Assembly (NCBI RefSeq): GCF_014396385.1
Contig: NZ_CP060716.1
Location: 1,364,001 to 1,428,000, forward strand
Direction: 5' to 3'
DNA from: Leucobacter denitrificans
GTDB lineage: Bacteria > Actinomycetota > Actinomycetes > Actinomycetales > Microbacteriaceae
Length of the DNA: 64,000 bases
The first letter of the stretch is position 1. Every line of letters starts with the position of its first letter. A program made the position numbers and the translations under genes. Below, in pieces: positions 45,774-53,305 of this stretch. Under the pieces are notes generated by a model. That model was not told where the DNA came from. It searched no databases and saw only the letters and a program-made list of their open reading frames with translations.

Positions 45774-45937
45774 ATGCCACACCGAATGGGTGTTCCTGGT
45801 CATTTCCGTCTTCCTCTGTTATCGAGCAGAGGGCATGAAAAAGGCCCGAGCCCGCGAGATTTCGCGGATCCGGGCCTCTGACCAGGCTTTTCAGCCGGGG
45901 CGCTTCAAGAAACTTCTAGAAATCCCAGTTCTCGTCA
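45774..45937. repeat. Left 164-bp direct repeat (attachment-site copy A)
   Basis: Matches 53142-53305 without gaps; I count 18 differences, about 89% identity. The block from 45879 to 45914 is identical (36 bp). Right of the core it keeps nrdF-like 3' codons on the minus strand (DENWDF and TAG stop at 45916-45918). This is the left junction of the integrated element. Confidence 0.9.
45838..45877 (-). terminator. Copy of the nrdF terminator at the left junction
   Basis: The same interrupted hairpin as at 53206-53246, with AAAAA on the plus strand (T-run on the minus) and arms AGGCCCG and CGGGCCT around a CCGCGAGATTTCGCGG inner stem. It would stop minus-strand transcripts leaving the element and may also stop transcripts from the HEAT gene. 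Confidence 0.75.
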
Positions 45938-45980
45938 TAGGTCGCATTATCATGCGGAATCTCAGGGGTTGCAGCGGGGC

Positions 45981-46001
45981 CGTGCCCTCTGCGTGCCACT
46001 C
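45981..46001 (+). repeat. Probable integrase arm-type sites, left end
   Basis: CGTGCCCTC (45981-45989) and CGTGCCACTC (45992-46001) are the same word as the multiple copies near the integrase gene at 52961-53150. Placed just inside the left junction. Confidence 0.55.
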
Positions 46002-46317
46002 ATGAAATATGGGCGCTTCGCGTGCAATTGCGAGACCGCGGCACAGTCAAATTGTAGCAATGCTGCTACGCCCGCGAGCAAGCAGAGCGCTGAAGTTCGC
46101 AGCAGTACGGGCCGATCAGCGACAAGCAGCGCGACTGACGAAACCTACGATCGCACTTCCTCTATCGAGCTTTGCGAGGATCGAGGTAGCCTGATAACGG
46201 TGGCACGCCACCAACAGCACTTCCACGTGGCAATTACGTGAATCATCGCGGAGAGGCCTGAGCACTACAGGACATGTCCGGATGGGGTGCGGCGCACCTA
46301 CACGCCGACTTCATTCC

Positions 46318-46336
46318 GCCGATGCTAAGCATCGGC
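46318..46336. promoter_or_regulatory. Perfect inverted repeat upstream of the DUF1801 gene
   Basis: GCCGATGCT and AGCATCGGC around a single A, ending 7 nt before the ribosome site of the next gene. Could be a dimeric repressor site or a 5' hairpin. The preceding 300 bp (46002-46317) hold no gene that I can see. Confidence 0.4.
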
Positions 46337-46353
46337 TGACGAAAGGACAAGAC

Positions 46354-46704
46354 ATGTCGAAAGACGAAAAGAACCTGGCTCAGGTCATCGACAAGATCGC
46401 GAAGATGGACGAGCCGAGACGTTCCGTCGTGCAGCGTGTGCACGACGTAATCATGAACACCGCTCCAACTCTCAAGCCACGCATCTGGTATGGAATGCCC
46501 GCCTACGCAATCTCCGCGAGCACGCCCGCATTGCTGACGCTACGCAATGATGAGCGGCTGAACCTTGCCATCACCGAGAAGGCACCCTTCCGCGCCGGGG
46601 GCGGCGTGGACGGCAAACTGATGCCAACTGCATGGTACTTCGAGAACGTAGACGAGGATACCGAGCGGCGGATCGCTGACATCGTGCGTTCAGTGCTCAA
46701 CTGA
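46354..46704 (+). CDS. DUF1801 (YdhG-like) protein
   Basis: A 116-aa protein. ERRSVVQRVHDVIMNTAP-like EPRRSVVQRVHDVIMNTAPT and KPRIWYGMPAYAI match the DUF1801 pattern (the iron-chaperone-like YdhG fold). ATG 46354 has AAAGGA 7 nt upstream. Cargo of the integrated element; function not known. Confidence 0.78.
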   Translation: MSKDEKNLAQVIDKIAKMDEPRRSVVQRVHDVIMNTAPTLKPRIWYGMPAYAISASTPALLTLRNDERLNLAITEKAPFRAGGGVDGKLMPTAWYFENVDEDTERRIADIVRSVLN

Positions 46705-46711
46705 CAGCACA

Positions 46712-51380: not shown

Positions 51381-51383
51381 CGG

Positions 51384-51590
51384 CTACTTCACTGTGGGAA
51401 TCTCCACGACCAAAGCCTTTCGCACTTCATCCAGATCGACGCGGATGAGCCGACCGACACGGTACCCGTGCACGGTTCCATCAGAGATCCGGCGTCGAAG
51501 GGTCTTGACCGAGACACCCAGGCTCTCTGCTGCCACTGTCAGTGAAACCAGCACAGAGTTCTGGAGTTCCTGCGACTGCCGAGCGATCAT
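51384..51590 (-). CDS. Excisionase-like MerR-type HTH protein
   Basis: A 68-aa DNA-binding protein: SLTVAAESLGVSVKTLRRRI, then DGTVHGYRVGRLIRVD, the HTH_17/excisionase pattern. GGAGG is 8 nt before ATG 51590. It follows the integrase gene by 58 bp on the same strand and is convergent with the DprA-like gene (3-bp gap). Likely directionality factor for excision. Confidence 0.84.
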   Translation of the reverse strand: MIARQSQELQNSVLVSLTVAAESLGVSVKTLRRRISDGTVHGYRVGRLIRVDLDEVRKALVVEIPTVK

Positions 51591-51648
51591 CGTGAGGCCC
51601 TCCTGTGAGCTGACTACCTTTGCTTCACAGGTGTCCAGCGCTGTCCGG

Positions 51649-52920
51649 TTACGACGTCTCGCCCTCGCTTGGTGCCCCGGAGATCGTCCCGGTGACACGA
51701 ACACTCATGCGATCCGCCAACTCCCGATCTCGACTCATCGTGGCGTGCTGGTATCGGAGCACGATATGGATGTCAGCGTGGCCGCCGCGTCGCATCAGCT
51801 CCGCGAGAGTTGCTCCCTCCTGCGCGAAGAGCGTCAAGCCCGTGTGCCGGAGGTCATGGAACCGGAAGCGATGCGGCAGGTTTGGAACGCGCTCACGTGC
51901 GTCAGCCCAGATGTACCCCCAGCGAGTGTTCGAAAGCGGCACGCTGCCCCGCGGGCTCGATGGGATCACGGGAGCTTTGGCCTCCGCAGCGACGTACTCG
52001 TTGAGGTGTTCCTTCAAACGACGAATCATGAGTTTCGGAACGCTCAACGAACGCTTGCCCGCCTCACTTTTCAGCTCGGTGTAGTCGCCGGTGTTGGCGT
52101 TGAGCTGGCGGCGCACGTGCAGTGTTGCGCTGCCATCGTCATGCCATTCGATATCTCGGCGCTGTACGCCCAGGCACTCGCCCCGTCGGAGCTGGCACCA
52201 CGCAGCAAGCTGCACCATGATCGCCCACTGGTTCGGCACTGCCTCATACAGCGCTTCGACCTGTATCGGCGTGATGACGTCTTCGCTTTCGTCGTGGTCG
52301 GCGTCGTATCGAACGGACTCCTGGCGTGGGATCGAAACGTTCGGTGCGGCAGGAATGATGCCCTCGCGAGCGGCTTGGCGCAGGATCATCATGAGCACGA
52401 TCAGCACCGGTCTTGTGATGCCGTTGAACTTCGACTTCGGATTCAGCGGTGCCGGTATCTGGTCGAGTCGATCTGTCATCTCACGAATACGATCGGCGTC
52501 AATCTCTTTCAAAGGAGTATCGCCAAACTCCGGGACGAGATACCCCGTCACTTTGCCCGCGTAGGAGCGAACCGTTCCAACGGCGCGCATCTTGCCGCTG
52601 CGGTTCGGTTCGGTCCTGATCATCTGCAACCAGCGCTTCGAGTACTCCTCGAAGCCCATGGAACGTGCTTTCTCCTGCTCCGTATCAGCGCGGTGTCGTG
52701 CCGCCACGACCGCAGGAGGCTCCCACTGCCCGAGCGAAATCTTCGTATGCACCGCCGCAAGCCATCGGCGGGCGTCCGTCTTGGTGAGAAACGTGAGCGA
52801 CTTATCGTCTTCGGTTCTCGCCGTGTAGGTCTCGCCATCTGGGCCCGGGTACCGAGCCTGCCAACGCCCGGAGGGCAACTTCCGTAGGCTCCCCCACGAT
52901 TCCCTCTTCGTCGCACTCAT
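51649..52920 (-). CDS. int: Tyrosine-type site-specific integrase
   Basis: A 423-aa tyrosine recombinase. N-terminal arm-binding domain (SLRKLPSGRWQARYPGPDG), core-binding SAM-like domain, and C-terminal catalytic domain with Arg in WCQLRRGECLG, HxxR in RFHDLRHTGLTLF, GHAD (third His) and the nucleophile Tyr in IVLRYQHAT. ATG 52920 has GGGAGGG 5 nt upstream. It sits 326 bp from the right core site, with repeats that fit arm sites between. It should insert the element at the nrdF 3' end. Confidence 0.93.
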   Translation of the reverse strand: MSATKRESWGSLRKLPSGRWQARYPGPDGETYTARTEDDKSLTFLTKTDARRWLAAVHTKISLGQWEPPAVVAARHRADTEQEKARSMGFEEYSKRWLQMIRTEPNRSGKMRAVGTVRSYAGKVTGYLVPEFGDTPLKEIDADRIREMTDRLDQIPAPLNPKSKFNGITRPVLIVLMMILRQAAREGIIPAAPNVSIPRQESVRYDADHDESEDVITPIQVEALYEAVPNQWAIMVQLAAWCQLRRGECLGVQRRDIEWHDDGSATLHVRRQLNANTGDYTELKSEAGKRSLSVPKLMIRRLKEHLNEYVAAEAKAPVIPSSPRGSVPLSNTRWGYIWADARERVPNLPHRFRFHDLRHTGLTLFAQEGATLAELMRRGGHADIHIVLRYQHATMSRDRELADRMSVRVTGTISGAPSEGETS

Positions 52921-52960
52921 GATGCCCTCCCGTGTACTCGGATGGACGCGAATGGACGCT

Positions 52961-53150
52961 CGTGCCACTCCGTGCCACTCACTCCGTACACCGGCGAGTA
53001 TCCGCAGGATTCCGCGGATCTCACGGGGTTAGCAGCGCTTCCTATGGCACGAAGTGGCACGCACCCGGCACCTTGCCGAGCCCAAATTTCGGTGGGTACG
53101 CTCCCTCGCTTCCGCGGGGAAGGTGCACGCGTGCCATCCGCGTGCCACTC
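52961..53150. repeat. Probable integrase arm-type sites, right end
   Basis: CGTGCCACTC occurs in tandem at 52961-52970 and 52971-52980, again at 53141-53150, with CGTGCCATC at 53130-53138; TGGCACG, the inverse, occurs at 53045-53051 and 53055-53061. The spacing between integrase gene and core and the copies at the other end (45981-46001) fit arm sites of a tyrosine integrase. Confidence 0.6.
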
Positions 53151-53305
53151 CGAATGGGCATTCCTGGTCATTTCTGTCCTCCTCTGTCATCGAACAGAGA
53201 GCACGAAAAAGGCCCGAACCCGCGAGATTTCGCGGATCCGGGCCTTTGACCAGGCTTTTCAGCCGGGGCGCTTCAAGAAACTCTTAGAAGTCCCAATCCT
53301 CGTCT
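53142..53305. repeat. Right 164-bp direct repeat (attachment-site copy B)
   Basis: Second copy of the junction repeat, with the identical core at 53247-53282 ending 1 bp before the nrdF stop codon. It covers the nrdF terminator and the last seven codons of nrdF. Confidence 0.9.
53206..53246 (-). terminator. nrdF terminator
   Basis: On the minus strand: AAGGCCCG, GAT, an inner CCGCGAAATCTCGCGG stem-loop, GTT, CGGGCCTTTTT. Strong rho-independent terminator with a T-run, 38 bp past the nrdF stop, at the edge of the core attachment site. Confidence 0.92.

Follow-up and report, generated by a model that had tools for sequence, protein, structure and literature searches.

A putative integrative element of an nrdF-specific family at the 3′ end of the ribonucleotide reductase gene of Leucobacter denitrificans

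A 64,000-nt stretch of the 2.40-Mb, single-contig genome of Leucobacter denitrificans (NCBI RefSeq GCF_014396385.1, contig NZ_CP060716.1, positions 1,364,001 to 1,428,000; hereafter the window, numbered from its first letter) was analyzed, and a 7.4-kb region adjoining the 3′ end of nrdF was read as an integrative element. Comparison with other genomes supported this element as one member of an nrdF-specific family. Our overall model, to which we assign a probability of roughly 0.88, is that a tyrosine-integrase element inserted at the nrdF 3′ end by a crossover within the codons for W-D-F, that it carries a copy of the gene tail together with a terminator of its own, and that it came to lie beside the scar of an earlier insertion. 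The target, the structure of the ends, the repeated arm-like motifs, a hairpin behind the gene, and a link between integrase clade and target were all observed. The main features of the locus are as follows, with individual genomes and loci cited below by our own handles (e.g., G037 or L166) where they must be told apart.

53284-54252, minus strand: nrdF, the target gene, encoding the class Ib ribonucleotide reductase beta subunit (NCBIfam class Ib NrdF), with its 3′ end inside the right repeat copy
53140-53313: right copy of the 174-nt direct repeat, covering the last codons of nrdF and the sequence 3′ of them
45772-45945: left copy of the 174-nt direct repeat, of which 45772-45917 is read as the proximal-end scar of an older element
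45918-53295: putative integrative element, core to core (period of 7,368 nt; distal tail copy at 45916-45936, nrdF tail at 53284-53304)
53286-53295, minus strand: proximal core, TGGGACTTCT, common to the shared runs of seven other elements
45918-45927, minus strand: distal core, TGGGATTTCT, after the element's own nrdF-like codons D-E-N-W-D-F
51649-52968, minus strand: int, tyrosine integrase of 439 amino acids without internal stop (Phage_integrase PF00589, E-value 6.3e-12, above the cut-off)
51384-51704, minus strand: xis-like excisionase gene overlapping the 3′ end of int (HTH_17, E-value 4e-6; TIGR01764 excise, above the cut-off)

Repeat pair and crossover core

A repeat search of the window detected an ungapped direct repeat of 174 nt with 89% identity and a spacing of 7,368 nt between its copies, and int was located beside the right copy, on its element side. 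The copies share an identical run of 36 nt (45879-45914 = 53247-53282, direct reading), and the left copy was also found to encode nrdF-like terminal codons (DENWDF-stop), a feature absent from the original prediction that had been made from the sequence of this locus. The nrdF-tail part of the repeat is improbable by chance, since GACGAGNACTGGGACTTCTA with at most three mismatches occurred twice in the window and none of 100 shuffles reached two occurrences. No tRNA genes were found in the window by ARAGORN.

The borders of the element were placed by comparing its ends with those of seven other complete elements. In total, eight elements had both ends on one contig and in one orientation, ranging from 7.4 to 66.0 kb: those of the window (7.4 kb), Mycetocola (9.8 kb), Gulosibacter (21.1 kb), Pseudoclavibacter (31.4 kb), G037 (48.0 kb), G397 (48.9 kb), G047 (52.1 kb), and G004 (66.0 kb). 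Between the ends of the seven others, the identical run through the core was 11 to 14 nt, and common to all seven runs was TGGGACTTCT, which corresponds to the nrdF codons Trp-Asp-Phe and the first base of the stop codon. This 10-mer was the same in all 46 other nrdF ends of the genus that were compared. The two cores of the window differ by one base (C/T), so that its own identical core run is only TGGGA. The distal ends, which lie away from nrdF, were alike in having a GGCACG arm-like repeat and, after about 45 nt, GACGAGTAYTGGGACTTCTAR (GAGAACTGG in the window and Gulosibacter), while the proximal ends had the host's own bases ahead of the core. When the tail-codon pattern was searched, a second copy was detected in several int-carrying genomes, and the reversed pattern gave no match in 23 genomes.

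The 174-nt repeat exceeds the run shared from end to end in each of the seven other complete elements. In most int-less members of the genus, the sequence directly past the stop codon was unlike the element (among the flanks read, N004-N007 and G040 carry element ends), which argues that neither the 36-nt nor the 174-nt stretch is likely to have been a chromosomal site. The 174-nt repeat is thus read not as the attachment (att) core but as sequence around a core that would lie inside the W-D-F codons. The original prediction had described an ungapped repeat of 164 nt with 18 differences, which is the same pair slightly trimmed, and had placed an integrase beside one copy, as was found for the intact int adjoining the right copy. 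It had also taken the 36-bp identical run for the core; the run is present, but as an att core it was rejected, given that the other elements share just 11 to 14 nt and place the core in W-D-F. The comparison of the seven elements likewise moved the predicted join of 45915 to 53246 to the cores at 53286-53295 and 45918-45927.

Further features were noted in two genomes. In G014 (L074, at about 9514 with nrdF forward), the distal tail copy was found in inverted orientation 8.4 kb from nrdF, near a fragment resembling an integrase of a second lineage. In G397 (L166, 11910, reverse strand; L167), part of a second nrdF 3′ end was located 2 kb past the distal end of the element, and 34 kb beyond that a further end of distal type.

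Integrase and target across genomes

Relatives of the integrase were examined in a collection of named genomes and in genus, family, and order samples, with some genomes recurring in more than one of these sets. In the named collection, int was immediately downstream of nrdF at all 10 loci encoding relatives (Gulosibacter, four Leucobacter records, Mycetocola, Pseudoclavibacter, Agromyces, a Microbacteriaceae bacterium, and an Actinomycetota bacterium). Within the genus, matches at an E-value of 1e-20 came from 19 of 54 genomes, and nrdF adjoined int in 13 of the 14 rows of at least 68% identity. The fourteenth row, G046, had int behind another tail copy with the nrdF 3′ end on a separate contig, and the five further rows (28 to 31% identity) were away from nrdF by coordinates. 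A near full-length close int was present in 13 of the 54 genomes, and nrdF ends without int were read in relatives. The family sample yielded matches at an E-value of 1e-60 in 10 of 398 genomes, seven of them new, and tblastn placed int behind nrdF in six of these seven, in Gulosibacter behind its second nrdF as well; the seventh, G113, has a contig that begins within nrdF-like last codons. In the order sample, where 15 of 396 genomes matched in 18 rows and 1.5 kb was searched on each side of each locus, the association varied with identity: (i) int was behind nrdF in all eight rows of at least 70% identity (own genome included), with transposase-like open reading frames (ORFs) seen by eye between the two genes in L171; (ii) one row at 54% was behind a gene read as lpd (dihydrolipoyl dehydrogenase); and (iii) a transfer-messenger RNA (tmRNA) or tRNA-Ser gene was just upstream in all nine rows at 36 to 41%. 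A protein search at an E-value of 1e-40 returned 514 matches, among which those listed included Microbacterium, Sinomonas, Kocuria, Brevibacterium, Bifidobacterium, and others.

The relation of the integrases to their targets was resolved further by phylogeny. In a first tree of 38 rows that included two fragments, the nrdF label required two changes, and when the tree was rebuilt without these fragments (G019, 69 amino acids; Agromyces, 87 amino acids) one change was sufficient. A search with an lpd-type integrase across 221 genomes of its own family gave 23 rows in 21 genomes. Six of these rows (53 to 57% identity to the query) were behind nrdF in every case, 13 were behind lpd, and four were behind neither gene within 1.5 kb; three of the four follow an lpd end, ATCAACTTCTGA or ATCAACTTCTAG, and the fourth a degenerate form of it. 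In the 51-integrase tree, one branch separated the 27 nrdF rows from all others (100/97), and the 15 lpd rows formed the sister clade of these (99/96), with all target labels needing 4 changes versus a mean of 21.1 with shuffled labels. Besides the two fragments, this tree omits the identical or near-identical rows G011, G031, G113, and L175 as well as, from the 23 lpd-search rows, L187 (a duplicate of L176) and the fragments L204, L206, and L207; the broken or cut int copies G049, G035, G371, G410, L177, and L010 are in no tree. Labels were given by tail sequence where the whole gene was not adjacent (G046 as nrdF; L191, L193, and L196 as lpd). By reading, the elements of the lpd clade resemble those at nrdF in having a gene-end target, a hairpin-like repeat, and GGCACG repeats ahead of int. 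They differ in the target tail: all 13 lpd genes read end in ATCAACTTYT-stop (N-F), against TGGGACTTCT-stop for nrdF. With few exceptions among the cases read, both genes close with the codons (G/A)AC-TTY-stop.

These results support the earlier proposal of an nrdF-specific integrative element family, as the same integrase, in one clade, was found behind nrdF in other genera and families, and int-less nrdF ends exist within the genus. We give even odds to a broader scenario in which an integrase lineage related to those at tRNA-Ser and tmRNA genes took to nrdF and lpd ends and acquired each once, with the elements then spreading over actinobacterial families, where they would replace host terminators with their own and leave these element-borne terminators behind after decay. 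A different-lineage integrase was also observed in G019 (L079, 1153-2334 with nrdF forward), facing nrdF and starting 51 nt past it, and pieces of relatives of this second lineage were found behind nrdF in G020, G009, and G008 (L080, L069, and L068); thus, the nrdF site may serve more than one integrase lineage.

Terminator, arm-type repeats, and older scar

The end of the element next to nrdF was found to have a hairpin with a T run directly 3′ of the gene and a set of short repeats, of which a counterpart was present inside the distal end.

53208-53247, minus strand: element-borne, terminator-like hairpin and T run directly 3′ of nrdF (−34.6 kcal/mol, z −6.14; none of 200 shuffles as low)
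45840-45879, minus strand: second terminator-like hairpin, in the left copy (scar) (−30.3 kcal/mol, z −4.07)
53130-53146, minus strand: putative arm-type repeat 1, GGCACGCGGATGGCACG
53046-53061, minus strand: putative arm-type repeat 2, inverted, CGTGCCACTTCGTGCC
52961-52976, minus strand: putative arm-type repeat 3, GGCACGGAGTGGCACG, overlapping the int start region
45981-45999, minus strand: putative arm-type repeat inside the distal end, GTGGCACGCAGAGGGCACG (0 mismatches to the pattern)

Of 26 proximal ends collected, 24 were distinct and were compared. All 24 had a hairpin (−28.8 to −44.2 kcal/mol) that began 32 to 41 nt past the first base of the stop codon and was followed by T-rich sequence. 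The pairing was conserved, with standard pairs in 351 of 360 cells (15 pairs × 24 sequences) and both-side changes in 7 of the 15 pairs as a raw count with no tree control. A strong hairpin was also found soon past the stop in the host DNA behind the distal ends of Mycetocola, G037, G004, and G410, and none stood out in the host DNA behind those of G047 and G397. Taken together, the proximal hairpins and the displaced host hairpins suggest that the element most likely swaps the terminator of nrdF for its own predicted one and restores the last codons of the gene. Past the hairpin, GGCACG repeat pairs were detected at near-fixed distances; in 23 of the 24 distinct proximal ends, the inverted arm-type repeat fell at +214 to +229 relative to the stop, and a like repeat occurred at the same place in the distal ends of other elements. 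These repeats inside both ends are putative arm-type sites for Int.

According to the mechanism we propose, the tyrosine integrase would insert the element at the 3′ end of nrdF by a crossover inside the Trp-Asp-Phe codons. The element holds a copy of the last codons of nrdF near its putative distal arm site and a predicted transcription terminator near its putative proximal arm sites, and because it carries both, insertion would keep the C-terminal W-D-F unchanged while nrdF gains the element's terminator behind it. The DNA formerly 3′ of nrdF, its terminator included, would be displaced to the far side, and Int with Xis would excise the element. In the window, the insertion would have been made beside the scar of an earlier family member, hence the 174-nt flanking repeat.

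The part of the left copy at 45772-45917 was found to resemble a proximal end in that it has a terminator, a leader, and a portion of arm repeat 1. A comparable arrangement was detected in Gulosibacter chungangensis, where the distal end abuts the proximal end of another element, one of a different subtype. This second proximal end stops close to the same arm repeat, and behind it lies a 174-residue fragment of int. We read the left copy of the window as this tandem arrangement in further decayed form. The most likely reason for so long a repeat is that the present element inserted next to a scar left by an older family member. When a proximal-end profile was applied to the 34 nrdF flanks of the genus without an int match, eight scored at least 37 bits (G040, where the contig ends, G051, G013, G033, G027, G010, G005, and G022) and four more scored 17 to 21 bits; none was reported among 1,711 fragments further away. 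The alternative that the 174-nt repeat is the att pair itself, namely a long and diverged attL/attR captured from the host nrdF end with no earlier element, appears unlikely. It would fit an ungapped repeat that spans the nrdF end and the terminator, as well as the terminator-only similarity of some int-less genus members, where a native origin is possible. Yet the seven other complete elements share only 11 to 14 nt, most of the int-less relatives that were read have unrelated sequence right after the stop, the left copy extends past the terminator to the first arm site in the manner of whole or partly decayed element ends, and the tandem version is present in Gulosibacter. A 23-nt piece at 43003-43025 was also noted, which is 91% like the 3′ half of the terminator and the bases after it and may be due to chance or to another scar.

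Several observations weigh against the model of an element inserted beside an older scar. Regarding the ends, (i) the one-base difference between the window's cores is unexpected from a recent exact crossover; (ii) nrdF ends in W-E-F, GGGAGTTCT, in two hosts of clade members (G371 and L173), so the core is variable outside the genus; (iii) a second exact tail copy was not found in G006, G011, G025, G026, and the incomplete G031; and (iv) the tail copy was inverted in G014 and on another contig in G030 and G015, with only one tail copy in G122 and none in G371. Regarding the scar, the profile matches of the int-less G013, G027, G010, G005, and G022 lie mostly in the terminator, which may be native in these five flanks, and the left copy could be native host sequence that was the source of the element's end. 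Insertion targets were read for a minority of the 514 homologues from the protein search. Among plasmid records there was no match at an E-value of 1e-40, and no viral contig was confirmed.

Transfer of the element was examined by comparison with Gulosibacter. The int products were 97% identical, compared with 81% for NrdF and NrdE, and a 6.3-kb alignment starting in nrdF was 90% identical overall, rising from 69 to 84% per 100 nt through nrdF to 90 to 97% over the next 700 nt. From this profile we infer horizontal transfer, with any direction and number of transfers being likewise presumptive. That the int-xis-dprA cluster is instead not mobile but resident beside nrdF and passed on vertically is very improbable; its place beside nrdF is constant over several families, but a near full-length close int occurs in 13 of the 54 genus genomes, int is far more similar across genera than NrdF, the elements span 7 to 66 kb with conserved far ends, and a second int of the family is at the second nrdF of Gulosibacter. 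Better rated, although still somewhat below even, is the view that the element has lost its mobility and persists as a deletion remnant for the sake of its terminator or cargo. The window element is the smallest of the eight, its cores differ by one base, and Pfam detected no relaxase or conjugation genes among its 8 ORFs, whereas ten ORFs scanned in the 48-kb G037 element included a TrwC relaxase, a TraG-type/type IV secretion system (T4SS) coupling protein, an ArdC-like protein, and an ABC-3C protein. Against this, the Int and Xis frames are open, arm-like repeats are present at both ends, and the 9.8-kb relative likewise has both ends.

Gene content, known systems, and significance

Besides int and xis, the element was found to encode the following proteins.

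50256-51380, plus strand: dprA-like gene, convergent with xis (PF02481, E-value 3.1e-57; TIGR00732, 0.75 bits below the cut-off)
47926-49581, minus strand: cargo, ABC-F ATPase, ribosomal-protection-like, below the curated cut-offs of those families
46797-47351, minus strand: cargo, DUF7010 protein (Pfam)
46282-46704, plus strand: cargo, DUF1801 protein (Pfam)

The dprA-like gene ends 3 nt from xis. A dprA relative was in the same orientation beside xis in G004, G014, G026, G030, G037, G047, Gulosibacter, G397, and Mycetocola and was not seen there in G015, G025, and G122; a second, separate dprA is located elsewhere in the host genome. The best PADLOC match of the protein was ShosA, and our guess is that it might load RecA onto incoming single strands. 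A short frame at 47498-47734 resembled by eye the start of a glyoxalase/VOC-type protein, had no Pfam match, and is possibly a broken gene. Between the terminator and int, an open frame at 52917-53171 has GGAGG ahead of it and a start that is alike in many proximal ends; it may be non-coding, since the arm repeats fall inside it. Among the 8 ORFs of the element, Pfam detected no ArdC-like or ABC-3C proteins and no phage structural genes. No phage with a close integrase was found, as the 247 phage records that matched at an E-value of 1e-20 were all below 60% identity (best listed, 37.7%). Outside the element, a small protein at 41882-42292 looked by eye like a PIN-domain (VapC-type) protein and had no PADLOC match, and 22001-40000 had 60 to 67% G+C versus 53 to 59% in the preceding 22 kb, possibly another acquired region.

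The C-terminal tail of class Ib NrdF contacts the partner subunit and hardly varies. No paper naming nrdF as an integration site or attB was found in the open-licence literature searched. A ribonucleotide reductase gene had been considered an uncommon target in the original prediction, yet protein-gene targets as a category are not rare, because a large survey placed 43.4% of genomic islands in protein-coding sequence (PMC12424338). The element is similar to TIGER/Islander genomic islands, integrative and conjugative elements (ICEs), and integrative and mobilizable elements in having integrase and xis at one end, a restored gene end, and tandem insertion; it differs from TIGER/Islander islands in that the last three codons of nrdF are the target and that the terminator-like hairpin found behind the host gene comes with the element. 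Actinomycete ICEs (AICEs) of the pSAM2 type mostly have tyrosine integrases, actinobacterial hosts, and tandem insertion, all in common with the window element (PMC3218068). The vast majority of tyrosine-integrase AICEs are reported to be in tRNA 3′ ends (PMC3218068), unlike the nrdF target seen here. The one large nrdF element checked has a TrwC relaxase and TraG/type IV coupling protein. RUSTI, an ICE of cheese actinobacteria for which excision and a circle are reported by PCR, is likewise an actinobacterial integrative element (PMC5526665). It was rejected as a relative on its tRNA-Leu target and differs further in the iron uptake genes aboard (PMC5526665).

An element that reads the NrdF tail codons would have a target in nearly every host and leave the protein unaltered. 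With nrdF and lpd as the targets of sister clades, a change of integrase target becomes testable with a core of about 10 nt. The built-in terminator and the scars matter for the interpretation of nrdF transcript ends, and nrdF-end sites could be landing sites for genes in actinobacteria. If the broader scenario given even odds above is true, mobile DNA would have rewritten the ends of nrdF transcripts in these bacteria time and again.

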